Assembly (NCBI GenBank): GCA_025350245.1
Contig: JANXYG010000009.1
Coordinates: forward strand, 1 to 64,000
DNA from: Betaproteobacteria bacterium
Lineage (GTDB): Bacteria; Pseudomonadota; Gammaproteobacteria; Burkholderiales; Ga0077523
Direction: 5' to 3'
DNA length: 64,000 nt
The translations under genes and the position numbers were made by a program. A model generated the notes under the pieces. It was given only the letters and a program-made list of their open reading frames with translations. It had not been told where the DNA came from and did not search any database. This document shows positions 32,211 to 38,024 of the stretch, piece by piece (position 1 is the stretch's first letter; each line of letters opens with the position of its first letter).

Positions 32211-33482
32211 GTGATCGAGGTCCAGCGTGCCGCCGCGATCAATGTCGCCACCGTGCTTGGCGGTCACAGTCTGGCGCATATTCCGGGCGGGATCGACCTG
32301 CACTCGTTCACTCCCTCCCAGCAAGGCGCGCTACGCGATTTGACCCAGGGCACGCTGCGTCACCTCGGCCCCCTGCGCATTATCCTGGGGCTGCTGGCTG
32401 AGCGCGGGGTGAGTGATCGTGCTGTCGAATCCCTGATTCTGGTTGCGCTGTATCAGTTGATTCATACCCGGGCAGCACCGCACGCGATCGTGAATCATGC
32501 CGTCGCGGCGGTACGAGCGGGTGGCGCGCGCCAGGCTGCGGGTTTCGTCAACGCCACGTTGCGTCGCTTTCAGCGCGAGCGACCGGACTTGCTAATCGCG
32601 GCCGCGCGTTCCCCGATGGGTCGCTGGTCGCACCCGGACTGGTGGATCGAGCGGCTGCGACGACAATATCCGATCGAGGCCGACGAGATTCTCGGACAAG
32701 GACTGGGCCGGCCACCGATGAGCCTGCGGGTGAATCGCCGTCGTATCGATTCCATGGCCTACCAACAGCGGCTCGCGGAGGCGGGCATGGAAGCGCGTAT
32801 TCAGCCGCATGGCGCGATCACGCTCCTGAAACCGGTTCCAGCCGCGGCATTGCCGGGGTTCGCGACCGGACTGGTATCGATTCAGGACGCCGGCGCGCAA
32901 TATGCCGCGCAACTGCTGGATCTGCGGGATGGCCAGAAAGTGCTGGACGCCTGCGCGGCGCCCGGTGGCAAGACAGCCCACATGCTGGAGCTGGCGGACG
33001 TTTCGCTGTTGGCGCTGGATCGGGACGGTGCTCGTCTGGGTGATGCCCGCCGCAATCTCGAGCGTCTGGGCCTGGCGGCGGCTACCGCCGTGGCCGACGC
33101 TTCCGACCCGTCGATTTGGTGGGATGGCGTCGCTTTCGATCGGGTACTACTGGATGCACCCTGTACGGCTTCGGGCATCGTCCGCCGCCACCCGGACGCC
33201 AAGTGGTTGCGCCGTGAATCCGACATCGCTTCGTTCGCGCAGACGCAGCGACAACTACTGGCTGCGTTGTGGCAGGTGCTGGTGCCGGGTGGTAAATTGC
33301 TTTATGCCACCTGCTCGGTATTCGCGGAGGAAAACCGGGACACGCTCGCCGCGTTTGTGGCTGCGCATGCCGACGCCGTTGCGATCGCCATGCCGGGGCT
33401 CGTTTCCCCGTCCGGCCAACTGCTGCCGAGCCTCGATCACGATGGTTTCTATTACGCGCTGCTGCAGAAGACTCCGCGCTAG
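32211..33482 (+). CDS. rsmB: 16S rRNA (cytosine-967-C5)-methyltransferase RsmB
   Basis: 423 residues from GTG 32211. An N-terminal NusB-like RNA-binding domain (about 1-130) precedes the methyltransferase domain. The SAM loop is VLDACAAPGGKTAHMLEL. Two catalytic cysteines are seen, C318 in LLDAPCTASG and C368 in YATCSVF, at the same spacing as in E. coli. It methylates C967 of 16S rRNA. It follows fmt after 15 bp and its end overlaps the next gene in another frame. Confidence 0.95.
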   Translation: MIEVQRAAAINVATVLGGHSLAHIPGGIDLHSFTPSQQGALRDLTQGTLRHLGPLRIILGLLAERGVSDRAVESLILVALYQLIHTRAAPHAIVNHAVAAVRAGGARQAAGFVNATLRRFQRERPDLLIAAARSPMGRWSHPDWWIERLRRQYPIEADEILGQGLGRPPMSLRVNRRRIDSMAYQQRLAEAGMEARIQPHGAITLLKPVPAAALPGFATGLVSIQDAGAQYAAQLLDLRDGQKVLDACAAPGGKTAHMLELADVSLLALDRDGARLGDARRNLERLGLAAATAVADASDPSIWWDGVAFDRVLLDAPCTASGIVRRHPDAKWLRRESDIASFAQTQRQLLAALWQVLVPGGKLLYATCSVFAEENRDTLAAFVAAHADAVAIAMPGLVSPSGQLLPSLDHDGFYYALLQKTPR

Positions 33483-34041
33483 CCTGCTGCTGTTGCTGCT
33501 GTCGCTTTGCGTGGGCGCTCCGCCGGGGTTCGCCTTCGGTGCCGCCGACCCGTCGATCGACGTGCGCTCCGCCGAGATCGCGCTCGGGAGCGACGGCTAC
33601 GACCTCGACGCCGTATTCCAGATCGAACTCGGGCACACCCTCGAGGATGCCCTGGCGAAAGGCGTGGCGCTCAATTTCGTCACCGAATTCGAGATGGTCT
33701 ACGAACGCTGGTACTTGCTCAACCTGTGGAATCGGACCGTGTCGGGGTTCGATCAGCGTTTTCGTCTCACCTACAACGCCCTCACCCGTCAGTATCGGGT
33801 CGCTGCCGGTGCCCTCGCCCAGAACGTGGACACCCTGCAAGAGGCGCTGGCGGTGATGGGTCACGTACGCGGCCGCTTCGTCGCCGCCCGTGATGATCTC
33901 GAAGCCGGCACCGCCTACAGTGCGCAGATCCGGATGCGGCTGGACACCTCCCAGTTGCCGAAGCCCTTCCAGATCAATGCCATCGGTTCCCGTGGCTGGA
34001 ACCTCGCCTCCGACTGGTATCGCTGGACGGTGAAGCCGTGA
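33442..34041 (+). CDS. DUF4390 secreted protein
   Basis: 199 residues from ATG 33442, which overlaps the rsmB 3' end by 41 bp. The N-terminus is a basic stretch plus a leucine-rich core (RASLLLLLLSLCVG) with an Ala-rich end, so a signal peptide is likely, with cleavage near AFGA. The mature part (IDVRSAEIALGSDGYDLDAV) matches DUF4390 proteins, which in Betaproteobacteria sit between rsmB and ntrY. Their function is unknown; the steady link with NtrYX suggests an envelope role tied to that sensor, but this is inference from position only. Confidence 0.82.
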   Translation: MVSITRCCRRLRASLLLLLLSLCVGAPPGFAFGAADPSIDVRSAEIALGSDGYDLDAVFQIELGHTLEDALAKGVALNFVTEFEMVYERWYLLNLWNRTVSGFDQRFRLTYNALTRQYRVAAGALAQNVDTLQEALAVMGHVRGRFVAARDDLEAGTAYSAQIRMRLDTSQLPKPFQINAIGSRGWNLASDWYRWTVKP

Positions 34042-34153
34042 GACACGTGACGCGGGGCCCCGCGCGCAGCGAGGGGATCGGCACTCGGTCGAGCGGCATC
34101 GGCGGCCGACACGAGGCTGCATGCGCTCGGGCAGTGGCTCGGAGGCTGAAGCC

Positions 34154-36469
34154 GTGACCTCGCGCCTGCGCCGGATGCGGGTCGCGATGGCTTCGCGGGG
34201 AGGCAAGGTACTGGCGGTACTGGTAATCACGCTCGGCGTTGCTCTCCTGTTCCTGCTGTCCACTGCGAGCAGCAACACGCGGATGTTCGCCTCATCCCTG
34301 CCACAACTGCTGCTGGGTGGTGTGGGTGCAGTCCTGATATTGCTGGTGTTCACCGGGTACCAGTTGCTGATCCTGAGGCGGCGCCTCAAGCAGCGGGTGT
34401 TCGGCTCGAAGCTCACGATGCGGCTGGTGTTGCTGTTCTCGCTGGTTGCGGTGCTGCCGGGTGCGCTGGTCTACGCGGTATCGGTGCAGTTCCTGGTGCG
34501 TTCGATCGACGGCTGGTTCGATGTGAGGGTCGAGAAGGCCCTGGAAGGTGGCCTTTCACTCGGTCGCAATGTGCTCGACAGCATGCTCAGGGATCTGCGC
34601 GGCAAGGCGGTGACCATGGCCGTTTCGCTGTCGGACCGCGCGCCACGCGACCGCATCAATGCTCTCAACGCGCTGCGCGAGCAGGCCGCAGTCCAGGAGG
34701 CGGCGGTCATCAGCGGGTCGGGCCAGGTGCTGGCGTTCTCGGGTGACGAGACCACCGGCCTGGTGCCGGAGATGCCATCGCCGGCCGCCATGCGCGACAT
34801 CCGCATGCAGAAGTCGTACAGCGCCATCATCGCCCGACCCGAAGGTGGCTTGCTCCTGCGGGTCGTTGTCCCGCTCAACACCCCCGAAGGTGAGGTATTG
34901 GCACTGGCGCTGGTCCAGCGCGTGACCGACCAGGTGGCGAGCAATGCCGAGGCGGTGCGGTCTGCCTCCGCCGAGTACCAGGAACTGTCGTTGTCCCGTC
35001 TCGGCCTGAAGCGGCTGTTTGGCCTTACGCTCACCCTGGCCCTGTTGCTCGCCCTGCTGTCTGCGCTCCTGCTGGCAATCTTCTTCAGTCAAAGGCTGTC
35101 GGCGCCACTCGGGATTCTGGCGGAGGGGACTCGCGCCGTCGCCCAGGGTGACTTCAGCCAGCGCACGGCGGTTCGCAGCTACGACGAACTCGGGCTGTTG
35201 ACGCAATCGTTCAACGCCATGATGCGTGACCTTGCCGTCTCGCAGGGACAGACCGAGCGCTACCAGGCCCAACTCGAGGAAGCCAAGACCGCATTGGAAA
35301 GCATTCTCGGAAACCTGTCGGCGGGCGTGATTTCACTGGATGCGGATCGACGGCTGAGATCCGCGAACCCGAGCGCGAGTCGGATCCTGGGCGTGGATCT
35401 CGAGCGCCTGGTCGGGCACGGCGTCGCGGAATGGCGGCTCGCCGATGAGCGCCTTGCAGCGGTTGCCGAACCGCTCATTGCGGCGTTGCCGGCCCTGAAC
35501 GAGCGCGACTGGCAGGGCCAGATCGCCTACCCTGCGGCGCAGGGCCAACTCACGTTGTTGACCCGCGCATCACAGATTGCTCAGACCGGACCCGGTGTGT
35601 ACGTTGTCGTGTTCGACGACATAACCCGCCTGCTGCGTGCTCAGCGCCAGGCAGCGTGGGGCGAAGTGGCACGTCGTCTGGCGCACGAGATCAAGAATCC
35701 GCTCACGCCGATCCAGTTGTCGGCGGAACGCCTGCAACACCGGTTGCATGGCAAGCTCGACGCCACCGACGGCGACATGCTCTCCCGTCTTACCCAGACG
35801 ATCGTCAATCAGGTCTCCGCGCTGAACAGCATGGTGGACGCGTTCAGCCAATATGCCCGCTCGCCAGAAGCGGAACTCAGTCCGGTCGATCTCGGTACCT
35901 TGACCCGGGAGGTGCTGGGACTTTACGAATCGATGGGTTGGGTGATGGCGTTGTCGGTCGAACCCCGATTGCCCCAGGTGCTCGGCGACGCGACCAAGCT
36001 GCGGCAGGTGTTGCACAACCTGCTCCGTAACGCCGAGGACGCGGTCGGCGCCAGCTCATTGCCGCGGATCTCGGTCCACCTCGGGCGATTCGAGGGCGGT
36101 GTCGCATTGAGCGTGACCGACAATGGCAACGGCTTTCCGCCGGCGCTGATGGGGTCGGCGTTCGAACCGTATGTCACCACCAAGCCGAAGGGCACCGGGC
36201 TTGGGCTCGCGATCGTTCACAAGATCGTCGAGGAGCACCACGGCACCATCCTCCTCGAGAACATCGAACCGCACGGCGCGAAGGTGACCGTGGTGCTGCC
36301 GGCGACCACGGCGACGGCGCGCATCGGCGCCAACACTGGTTTACCGTCCATGGATGACGATGCTGCATTCACTCGTGGAGGTCGGTCGGAAGGTCATGCC
36401 TCGCGCCGGTGTACCCCGGTATTCTTTCCCGAGGCTGAAACGCGAAACGGATCGGGAGTGGTGTCGTGA
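34154..36469 (+). CDS. ntrY: Sensor histidine kinase NtrY
   Basis: 771 residues from GTG 34154, chosen because GGAGG stands 8 bp before it; an ATG at 34121 is in frame but has no such site. Membrane helices lie at about 17-38, 50-73 and 88-115, a periplasmic region of about 170 residues follows, and another helix lies at about 288-318. HAMP (QRLSAPLGILAEGTRAVAQG) and PAS regions come next. The kinase core has phospho-acceptor H511 in RRLAHEIKNPLTP, then LRNAEDAV, VTDNGNGFP and KPKGTGLGLAIVHKI. It pairs with NtrX, which starts inside its last codons. Family knowledge links NtrYX to nitrogen, redox and envelope signals. Confidence 0.93.
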   Translation: MTSRLRRMRVAMASRGGKVLAVLVITLGVALLFLLSTASSNTRMFASSLPQLLLGGVGAVLILLVFTGYQLLILRRRLKQRVFGSKLTMRLVLLFSLVAVLPGALVYAVSVQFLVRSIDGWFDVRVEKALEGGLSLGRNVLDSMLRDLRGKAVTMAVSLSDRAPRDRINALNALREQAAVQEAAVISGSGQVLAFSGDETTGLVPEMPSPAAMRDIRMQKSYSAIIARPEGGLLLRVVVPLNTPEGEVLALALVQRVTDQVASNAEAVRSASAEYQELSLSRLGLKRLFGLTLTLALLLALLSALLLAIFFSQRLSAPLGILAEGTRAVAQGDFSQRTAVRSYDELGLLTQSFNAMMRDLAVSQGQTERYQAQLEEAKTALESILGNLSAGVISLDADRRLRSANPSASRILGVDLERLVGHGVAEWRLADERLAAVAEPLIAALPALNERDWQGQIAYPAAQGQLTLLTRASQIAQTGPGVYVVVFDDITRLLRAQRQAAWGEVARRLAHEIKNPLTPIQLSAERLQHRLHGKLDATDGDMLSRLTQTIVNQVSALNSMVDAFSQYARSPEAELSPVDLGTLTREVLGLYESMGWVMALSVEPRLPQVLGDATKLRQVLHNLLRNAEDAVGASSLPRISVHLGRFEGGVALSVTDNGNGFPPALMGSAFEPYVTTKPKGTGLGLAIVHKIVEEHHGTILLENIEPHGAKVTVVLPATTATARIGANTGLPSMDDDAAFTRGGRSEGHASRRCTPVFFPEAETRNGSGVVS

Positions 36470-37731
36470 GCCAGATCCTGGTGGTCGACGACGAGATCGG
36501 CATTCGTGAATTGCTATCCGAAATCCTGTCCGATGAAGGCCATCAGGTACGACTCGCGCAGAATGCAGCGGAGGCACGACAGGTTCGCAGCCGCACCCGG
36601 CCCGATCTGGTGCTGCTCGACATCTGGATGCCGGACACCGACGGCATCACACTGTTGCGCGAATGGGCCTCGACCGGCCAGCTCACGATGCCGGTGGTGA
36701 TGATGTCAGGCCACGGAACGATCGAGACCGCGGTGGAGGCAACGCGCATCGGCGCCTATGCCTTTCTCGAGAAACCGGTGGCGATGCAGAAGCTGCTGGT
36801 CACGGTTGGCAAGGCGTTGGCACAGCAGGCGACGGTAGCGGCTGCGCAACCGGCGCATTCGCTCGCGTTTCTGGGGCGGGCGCCGATCGTGTCGGACCTG
36901 CGCGAACGTCTCGAGCGCGTGCGCGATCTGCGCAATGCGGTACTGCTCACCGGCGATCCGGGTTGTGGCAAGGGGTTGTGCGCACGCTACCTGCATCGCG
37001 CGAACACAGCGTGGATTGCGCCCACGGACGCGGGCTTCCTGAACGATCCCGAGCGCCGGGAACTCGCCGCCGCCGCGGATGGCACCTTGTTCCTCCGCCG
37101 GGTGGATCGACTGGCGCCGGCCGACCAGGAAGCCCTGACCCGGGTATTGCCCGCGCTGGCCCAGGCTAATACCCGCGTCGTGTCCACTGCACCGCCGGAT
37201 CTGCCGGAACGCGTTGCCGAAGGCAACTTCGACTCGCGGTTGTACGCCACGTTGGCCGCCATCAGCCTGCGTGTGCCGGCACTGGCGGAACATCCCGAGG
37301 ATGTGCCGGAGATCGCCAAGCTGGTCCTCGAGCGGCTGTCGGAATCCCGTGCGGTGCCCGCCCGCAGTTTCGGAACCGCTGCGCTCAATCAGCTGCGACT
37401 CTATCGCTGGCCCGGCAATCTCACCCAGCTCGAGTCGGTGGTGAGGTCGGCGGCACTGGTGACCGATGGCGCCGAAATCGGACCCGCCGATGTCTCGGTC
37501 ACGCTCAACCGCATGCCTGATGCCCCGACCGCATCGCTGGGCGGTCTGGCTCTCGACACCAAGTTGCGTACTGCCCGCGACGCATTCGAGCGCGCCTATT
37601 TCGCCCATCATATTGCGATCGAGGGCGGCAACATGAGCCGGGTTGCCGACCGCGTCGGACTTGAGCGCACGCATCTCTATCGAAAACTCAAGCAGCTCGG
37701 CATCACCCTGCCACGCAAACCGGAGGGCTGA
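36466..37731 (+). CDS. ntrX: NtrX-type response regulator with degenerate AAA+ domain
   Basis: 421 residues from GTG 36466, overlapping ntrY by 4 bp. The receiver domain is intact: D8, D9, phospho-acceptor D52 (LLDIWMPDTDG), S81, K103. The central AAA+ domain is odd. Walker A is GDPGCGKG (163-170). Only about 35 residues separate it from the Walker B position, where DGTLFLRRV (205-213) has Arg-Arg in place of the usual Asp-Glu. The GAFTGA loop that contacts sigma54 is missing altogether. The C-terminal Fis-type helix-turn-helix (NMSRVADRVGLERTHLYRKL) is intact. It can probably be phosphorylated and bind DNA but is unlikely to activate sigma54. Confidence 0.9.
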   Translation: MSQILVVDDEIGIRELLSEILSDEGHQVRLAQNAAEARQVRSRTRPDLVLLDIWMPDTDGITLLREWASTGQLTMPVVMMSGHGTIETAVEATRIGAYAFLEKPVAMQKLLVTVGKALAQQATVAAAQPAHSLAFLGRAPIVSDLRERLERVRDLRNAVLLTGDPGCGKGLCARYLHRANTAWIAPTDAGFLNDPERRELAAAADGTLFLRRVDRLAPADQEALTRVLPALAQANTRVVSTAPPDLPERVAEGNFDSRLYATLAAISLRVPALAEHPEDVPEIAKLVLERLSESRAVPARSFGTAALNQLRLYRWPGNLTQLESVVRSAALVTDGAEIGPADVSVTLNRMPDAPTASLGGLALDTKLRTARDAFERAYFAHHIAIEGGNMSRVADRVGLERTHLYRKLKQLGITLPRKPEG

Positions 37732-37740
37732 GAGTTGAGG

Positions 37741-38024
37741 CCCCCCCCAGTCTGCGCTGCGCTGCGCCTTCCCCCCGAGGGGGCGCAGCGTCCTCGGGAG
37801 ACCCTGTGGGCGCTGCCCCTTCGCTTCGGGGTGTCCCTACGTTCGAAATCCCACGGCTGCGCTGCGCTGCGCCTTCCCTCCGAGGGGGCGCCGTTCGCTT
37901 GGCTGGTCTGTGCCGGCCGTTGGACGGCGGACGCCGGCCACTGGCGGCCCGGCGCGAACTGCGCCTGCGCGCCGCGCTCCGCCTTCCCCCCGAGGGGGCA
38001 CCGCGCGCTTTGGAGCGGCCTGGC
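37741..38024. repeat. GC-rich dispersed repeat, three units in a row
   Basis: Three diverged units at about 37741-37800, 37850-37900 and 37960-38015, in the opposite orientation to the copies near 5.0 and 59.6 kb. Unit 1 shows the fold best: CGCTGCG (37760-37766) and CCCCC pair with GGGGG and CGCAGCG (37784-37790). The stretch begins 10 bp after the ntrX stop and ends just before glk, filling the 305-bp gap. Reading frames across it are by-products of the repeat. The glk promoter must lie inside or at its edge; I cannot point to it. Confidence 0.78.

Follow-up and report, generated by a model that had tools for sequence, protein, structure and literature searches.

The window, by which we mean the whole 64,000-nucleotide stretch of DNA that was analyzed, contains an ntrYX gene pair in a conserved neighborhood. 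The gene order starts with rsmB, which encodes a 16S rRNA methyltransferase (positions 32211 to 33482, plus strand; Pfam PF01189, 179 bits; NusB, 53.5 bits) and is the first gene of this neighborhood in the window. It is followed by a plrP-like gene for a DUF4390 protein with a signal-peptide-like start (33442 to 34041, plus strand; PF14334, 164 bits; start codon uncertain), by the sensor kinase gene ntrY (34121 to 36469, plus strand; NtrY_N, HAMP, PAS, HisKA, and HATPase_c), and by ntrX (36466 to 37731, plus strand). The ntrX gene starts with GTG, overlaps the ntrY stop by 4 bases, and encodes a protein of 421 aa with a receiver, a pseudo-AAA+ domain, and a Fis-type HTH. On its 3' side lie a glucokinase gene (glk; Pfam, 355 bits) and, as read from the translations, gap, pgk, and pyk. 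The regulator combines a receiver carrying a phospho-acceptor Asp with a Fis-type HTH and sits directly 3' of an NtrY-type kinase, as is characteristic of NtrX, and the presence of rsmB and a DUF4390 gene 5' of ntrYX places it among the beta- and gammaproteobacterial NtrYX systems with PlrP. NCBIfam NF051870 (NtrX) was the top family for the protein, yet its score of 279 bits was below the curated cutoff of 600 bits; the NtrX name is therefore based on gene order and relatives.

The NtrY of the window has 92 residues between its GTGLGLA box and the stop, versus 42 to 58 in 25 other loci with the box (40 loci were compared, and the box was not found in 14). At the site of this tail (about 36356 to 36469), genus mates L014 to L016 have a spacer of 93 to 146 bases, and the tail looks like spacer that turned coding.

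Both ends of NtrX appear complete. The receiver (residues 3 to 119; 36472 to 36822, plus strand; PF00072, 95 bits) has D8, D9, the phospho-acceptor D52 (36619 to 36621, plus strand), S81, and K103, and the Fis-type end, ERTHLYRKLKQL, is recognized as an HTH at residues 374 to 411 (37585 to 37698, plus strand; PF02954, 27.7 bits). An earlier note on this DNA, made from the letters alone, had described these two parts as intact, and they are also conserved: D8, D9, D52, and S81 were found in 109/109 sequences and K103 in 55/55, and the HTH core from E400 to R406 was kept in 109/109. Between the two ends lie a Walker A relic, GDPGCGKG (residues 163 to 170; 36952 to 36975, plus strand), and a Walker B relic, DGTLFLRRV (residues 205 to 213; 37078 to 37104, plus strand), which the note had placed correctly and which are 34 residues apart, and then an AAA+ lid remnant (residues 275 to 350; 37288 to 37515, plus strand; PF25601, 48 bits) whose W315 is present in 114/114 sequences of the same form. 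PF14532 (Sigma54_activ_2, a short profile) matched over its whole length with 103 bits, but this match is not diagnostic, because a canonical activator also matches it whole-length (88.7 bits). PF00158 scored only 42 bits on the window NtrX, versus 237 bits for a canonical activator from the same genome.

To describe what the middle domain has lost, we used as canonical references nine activators with GAFTGA, four from the same genome (L001 to L004) and five from relatives (L142 and L144 to L147). All 9/9 canonical activators have 64 residues from the Walker A Lys to the Walker B Asp, and the window NtrX has 41, so 23 residues are missing and not about 30, as had been estimated in the earlier note. 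The junction of this deletion, which took loop L1 with GAFTGA, lies approximately at residues 194/195 (37045 to 37050, plus strand) and depends on the alignment. A second deletion, which the note did not mention, shortened the stretch from Walker B to sensor I by 10 residues, from 40 in 9/9 canonical activators to 30 in the window, with an approximate junction at residues 232/233 (37159 to 37164, plus strand); we take this gap to be L2, the pre-sensor I insertion in the anatomy of bacterial enhancer-binding proteins (bEBPs). Where Walker B has DE the window NtrX has RR, leaving no pair of Asp and acid, and two further changes that had escaped attention are R to D at the first arginine finger and R to T at sensor II. 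Of the scored features of sigma54 activation, only the letters of Walker A (GxxGxGK, here GDPGCGKG) are left. The note had been right that GAFTGA and the Walker B Asp-Glu are missing, and its conclusion that the protein would no longer act as an ATP-driven sigma54 activator, still a prediction, is strengthened by the finding that the arginine finger and the sensor II Arg are gone as well. In PspF, L1 and L2 face sigma54 region I and the DNA (PMC7057263, as excerpted).

We scored the same features in three aligned sets: the 9 canonical activators, 77 DUF4390-linked NtrX proteins from the class outside the order, and 114 NtrX proteins of the window's form from the order, here called eroded. Judging from named relatives, the order and class are probably Burkholderiales and Gammaproteobacteria as GTDB defines them. 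It is important to note that the 114 were picked by similarity to the window protein, that they are thus a nonrandom sample of NtrX, and that some may share a species. Likewise, the regions around DUF4390 genes (80 in total, 79 from the class outside the order and 1 from the order) were hand-picked among 181 positive genomes, are mostly high scoring, and are nonrandom. Left out of the counts were L008 and L009, both records of the L011 gene, and L110, truncated at a contig end, and L141 was set apart; L219 and L222 (contig end) yielded no NtrX, and L197 is a second copy of the L129 locus. At L219 (genome G475), a DUF4390 gene is followed by a 692-aa ORF and then by an ABC transporter gene at the place expected for ntrX.

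The median span from the Walker A Lys to the Walker B Asp was 64 residues in the canonical set, 59 in the class NtrX, and 41 in the eroded form. Both shortenings, the first of which the note had proposed looking for in relatives, were present in 114/114 eroded orthologues (first span, 39 to 42 residues; second span, 30 residues). The second of these spans measured 40 residues in 9/9 canonical activators and 66/77 class NtrX. GAFTGA was present in 9/9 canonical activators, 0/77 class NtrX, and 0/114 eroded NtrX. The other counts, from canonical to class to eroded, were as follows: GxxGxGK in 9/9, 57/77, and 4/114 (the window counted), Walker B D[DE] in 9/9, 32/77, and 1/114, the first arginine finger in 9/9, 63/77, and 0/114, and the sensor II Arg in 9/9, 58/77, and 0/114. 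Five further eroded rows outside the 114 (L286 to L290) had neither a GAFTGA-like motif (0/5) nor GxxGxGK (0/5). The arginine of the second finger was R in 34/114 eroded rows. The losses described in the earlier note stand, but they are no lesion of a single protein: the window NtrX, which the note was right to find odd, is an unremarkable orthologue belonging to a widespread regulator family. The class sequences suggest that ATPase residues may have decayed in many lineages. As a separate observation on the class NtrX outside the order (L178 to L257), Walker A and Walker B were both kept in 27/77, with patchy loss. On a poorly supported tree, this pattern takes about 20 changes, and only 2 of them are forced by starred branches.

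The retained Walker A raises the possibility that the protein is switched by binding ATP without hydrolyzing it, as reported for the NtrC of Rhodobacter capsulatus (PMC10274813, as excerpted). In favor of this are GDPGCGKG in the window and the frequency of GxxGxGK in the class NtrX given above, and the window Walker A could indeed still hold nucleotide, which counts against the pseudo-ATPase reading given below. Against it, the lysine occurs in only 4 of the 114 eroded rows, the window sharing it with L019, L020, and L021 alone, and its genus mates have R or E. We consider ATP-binding control improbable, and we rejected the idea that kept ATP binding in the eroded lineage can be read from the Walker A of the window. 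A part of the old site is nevertheless conserved for some reason, as the second Walker B position is D or E in 99/114 eroded rows, the window not among them.

An assembly error, or a pseudogene in decay, could also leave two in-frame gaps relative to the canonical activators, and the earlier note had named such an error, together with close relatives carrying a full GAFTGA loop, as what would overturn its reading. We ruled this out, and put its chance at practically nil, since the same gaps are found in all 114 relatives with no full GAFTGA among them, the frame is open, third-position GC is even along ntrX (0.78 in the receiver, 0.79 in the AAA part, and 0.71 in the HTH), and dN/dS is low. 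The last was estimated by NG86 as dN per domain over dS of the whole gene in 27 disjoint eroded pairs (median dS, 0.85), and the medians were 0.03 for the receiver, 0.11 for the AAA part, 0.10 for the lid, and 0.02 for the HTH, with a top AAA value of 0.28. The AAA remnant is under purifying selection.

We compared NtrX with NtrC in 28 genomes that have both (378 pairs, which share genomes and are not independent). The median identities for NtrX were 0.46 (AAA), 0.57 (lid), 0.85 (receiver), and 0.83 (HTH), and those for NtrC were 0.90, 0.71, 0.80, and 0.81, respectively. The AAA part was less similar than the receiver in 378/378 NtrX pairs and more similar than the receiver in 378/378 NtrC pairs. 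Ranked by median identity, the motor comes first among the parts of NtrC and last among those of NtrX, and the AAA part of NtrX is diverging far faster than the NtrC motor in the same genomes.

An AlphaFold2 model built from 55 sequences (mean pLDDT, 90; pTM, 0.64) predicts an AAA+ core fold with its lid intact. Residues 132 to 349 of the model matched FlrC (6luf_A) over 214 residues of the 247-residue chain (rmsd, 2.1; Z, 23.1), and the best full-length match was Brucella NtrX (5m7p_B; Z, 26.3; 396 residues), at an rmsd of 16.4, which indicates agreement of the individual domains but not of the way they are arranged. A common fold is no proof of function. VpsR (7v2b; Z, 22.3; 330 residues; rmsd, 20.1) was also among the structural matches, and the title of that entry names c-di-GMP binding. 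The remnant may have been repurposed as a module that binds a partner or a ligand, such as the nucleotide second messengers of VpsR and FleQ, and the purifying selection on remnant and lid, with 25 positions of the AAA span conserved in at least 90% of the 114 rows, would suit such a role. The places of the Walker A lysine, the first Walker B acid, and the arginine finger vary or are replaced, however, and more than one lineage kept the gene after losing the domain (see below), so that we regard this alternative as unlikely, if the most credible of those we considered.

We searched 300 genomes of the order with the window NtrX, and 293 matched at an E value of ≤1e-30. A hand count divided these matches into 207 at 1e-70 or better and 86 weaker ones, with E values from 8e-35 to 1.4e-55. 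We opened 37 (18 plus 19) of the weaker group, and of the 207 strong matches only those made into loci were read. In 35 of the 37 opened matches, receiver and HTH are joined by a linker of just 24 to 83 residues (median, 54), giving an NtrX of 193 to 302 aa across the 35 loci. Ala plus Pro make up at least 25% of the linker in 13/35, a Pfam search for an AAA family in 8 of the 35 found none, and a kinase with an HE[IVL]KNP box lies just 5' of the gene in 35/35. The other two opened matches were L142, a canonical activator, and L141, the middle domain of which was unrecognized by motifs. L141 (G282) is a 414-aa NtrX in a genome of 1.4 Mb and possibly represents the last step before excision.

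The linker form arose more than once. When the columns of NtrY kinase, receiver, and HTH were combined in one tree, after thinning of near-copies from 155 to 93 rows, it takes four changes, of which at least three are forced by starred branches, and in a later run without six long-branched or odd rows (L141, L306, L125, L143, L309, and L307) it takes three changes, all forced. With the six rows left out, a single linker clade was rejected by the AU test (P = 0.01), a value that assumes a group fixed before the trees, while ours was named after three earlier trees had been inspected. The earlier trees of receiver and HTH are weak: linker forms are scattered on them and their starred branches allow one clade, with the eroded rows taking four changes and not forming one clade on the first tree, and eroded and linker rows jointly taking one change on the second. 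Within genus g34, L286 is eroded and L139, L291, L292, L299, and L302 have a linker, and the four of these linker rows that are on the tree have L286 as their starred sister. We favor repeated loss, since reacquiring a domain that carries identical deletions seems far less likely, and judging from the sequences, true absence of the domain would be a later, repeated step than the eroded form.

A match to rpoN was found in 279 of the 300 genomes of the order and not in the other 21. The form of NtrX was read in 13 of these 21 and is eroded in six (G157, G040, G085, G089, G244, and G246) and a linker form in seven (G031, G101, G127, G176, G194, G165, and G229); G041, G086, and G259 had no NtrX match in the order search. 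As G157 is 91% and G246 is 86% complete, the absence of rpoN is unsure in those two. The occurrence of this regulator in genomes that gave no match to rpoN supports, indirectly, an action at sigma70 promoters. The genome of the window has rpoN and four canonical activators, and that sigma54 is on hand there counts against independence from it. It would also permit the regulator to serve sigma54 passively, by joining a canonical activator in mixed rings such as those described for HrpR/HrpS (PMC7057263, as excerpted). We think this very improbable given that the sigma54 loops are shortened and the first arginine finger is gone in all 114 eroded rows, and that eroded NtrX is also found where no rpoN was matched.

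Several known systems bear on the interpretation. The NtrX of Neisseria gonorrhoeae, for which a mutant was reportedly studied experimentally by Atack in 2013, is by its sequence of the window's eroded form: it (NZ_CP119142) shares 42% identity over 99% of the window query, matches all five Pfam families of the window protein (157 bits for PF14532), and lacks GAFTGA. Its Walker A and Walker B read GEAGSPFE and GGVLYVGD, and it thus lacks the Walker A lysine, unlike the window. The source record (L310, NZ_CP119142.1; 2.17 Mb) is labeled a plasmid and by its size is more likely a chromosome. The closest solved relative by sequence (1.1e-62) and by fold is Brucella NtrX (5m7n, 5m7o, and 5m7p), which was solved with ATP and with ADP according to the titles of the structure entries. 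As aligned, 5m7n lacks GAFTGA like the window, but it differs in having retained the ATPase residues, with GPSGAGKE, LYLDEV, FREDLFHRL, and WPGNLRQL. Excerpts of two papers (PMC3162934 and PMC10274813) list EBP-derived regulators that have abandoned sigma54 (TyrR, DhaR, HupR, VpsR, and the NtrC of Rhodobacter and Caulobacter), with GAFTGA deleted or changed and with action at sigma70 reported or proposed. The losses named in these excerpts lie in or around GAFTGA, whereas the window NtrX has also lost the L2 stretch, the arginine finger, sensor II, and Walker B.

The excerpted text of PMC13001219 describes the order rsmB-plrP-plrS-plrR in beta- and gammaproteobacteria, and Bordetella PlrR, a beta-type NtrX, shares with the window the order rsmB, DUF4390 gene, kinase, and regulator. 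The same text, citing Bonato 2016, states that betaproteobacterial NtrX lacks the AAA+ domain of alphaproteobacterial NtrX and describes beta-type NtrX/PlrR as a receiver plus a DNA-binding domain, whereas the window keeps a remnant that, by prediction, still folds. In the window form, the AAA+ domain looks to be present and dead, which refines the published statement. Beta-type NtrX without the domain is thus already published, and what we add is the decay series and the repeated excision; in the open-access literature searched, we found no account of an intermediate, eroded stage or of the domain being excised repeatedly. According to excerpts, Bordetella depends in vitro on phosphorylated PlrR as an essential factor (PMC13001219), ntrX is putatively essential in Azoarcus olearius (PMC9769520), and ntrX is a candidate essential gene in Herbaspirillum (PMC5086560), so that NtrX or its orthologue is reported as essential, or a candidate for it, in several bacteria.

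The eroded form has lost both sigma54-contact loops and the catalytic residues, and in relatives a short stretch has repeatedly replaced the domain. The reading we hold to be probable is that of a beta-type NtrX with a pseudo-ATPase AAA+ domain, switched by phosphorylation and independent of sigma54, with the middle domain acting as spacer or scaffold. NtrY, which PlrP, the DUF4390 protein, probably tunes, would set the phosphorylation of D52, which in turn would alter receiver pairing and thereby the seating of the Fis-type HTHs on DNA. The excerpted part of PMC7240162 gives a predicted binding motif of GCAn9TGC, with six fixed bases, too few to tell true sites from chance matches. NtrX would then act at ordinary, most likely sigma70, promoters without hydrolyzing ATP or touching sigma54, and the middle domain would be retained as a folded spacer or dimer scaffold and not as a motor. 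We infer the lack of ATPase activity and of sigma54 contact, the action at sigma70 promoters, the scaffold role, and the part played by PlrP here. The suggestion in the earlier note of a repressor or sigma70 regulator is a plausible hypothesis.

We further lean, with less assurance, toward a broader view in which one regulator lineage has placed different middles, in succession, between an unchanging receiver and HTH: a motor that looks functional, a dead one, and plain linkers acquired independently several times. The AAA+ ring would have become optional packing, and NtrX as a whole would have left sigma54 long ago and be misfiled as a sigma54 activator. A 2025 comparative paper, in the part excerpted, places NtrX/NtrY of Acidithiobacillia among sigma54 systems (PMC12194929). 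If this view is true, NtrX output needs only the phosphorylation-dependent pairing of two HTHs. The decay series is a natural experiment in which an AAA+ motor was disconnected, decayed, and removed while the response regulator stayed in use, and it offers ready-made domain swaps for examining roles of the middle domain of the NtrC family beyond ATP hydrolysis.

Lastly, the gap between ntrX and glk (37754 to 38015) holds three copies, spaced 105 and 110 bases apart, of a G+C-rich, REP-like element of 47 bases. Its core, CGCCTTCCCYCCGAGGGGGCG, is found in two of the copies and nearly so in the third. A reversed control of the core gave 0 occurrences, and a search of 310 fetched loci for a 15-base core of the element found it in just 3, each of them a locus of this gene itself. 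The core occurs 20 times in the genome of the window, ten of these in five pairs 79 to 106 bases apart.
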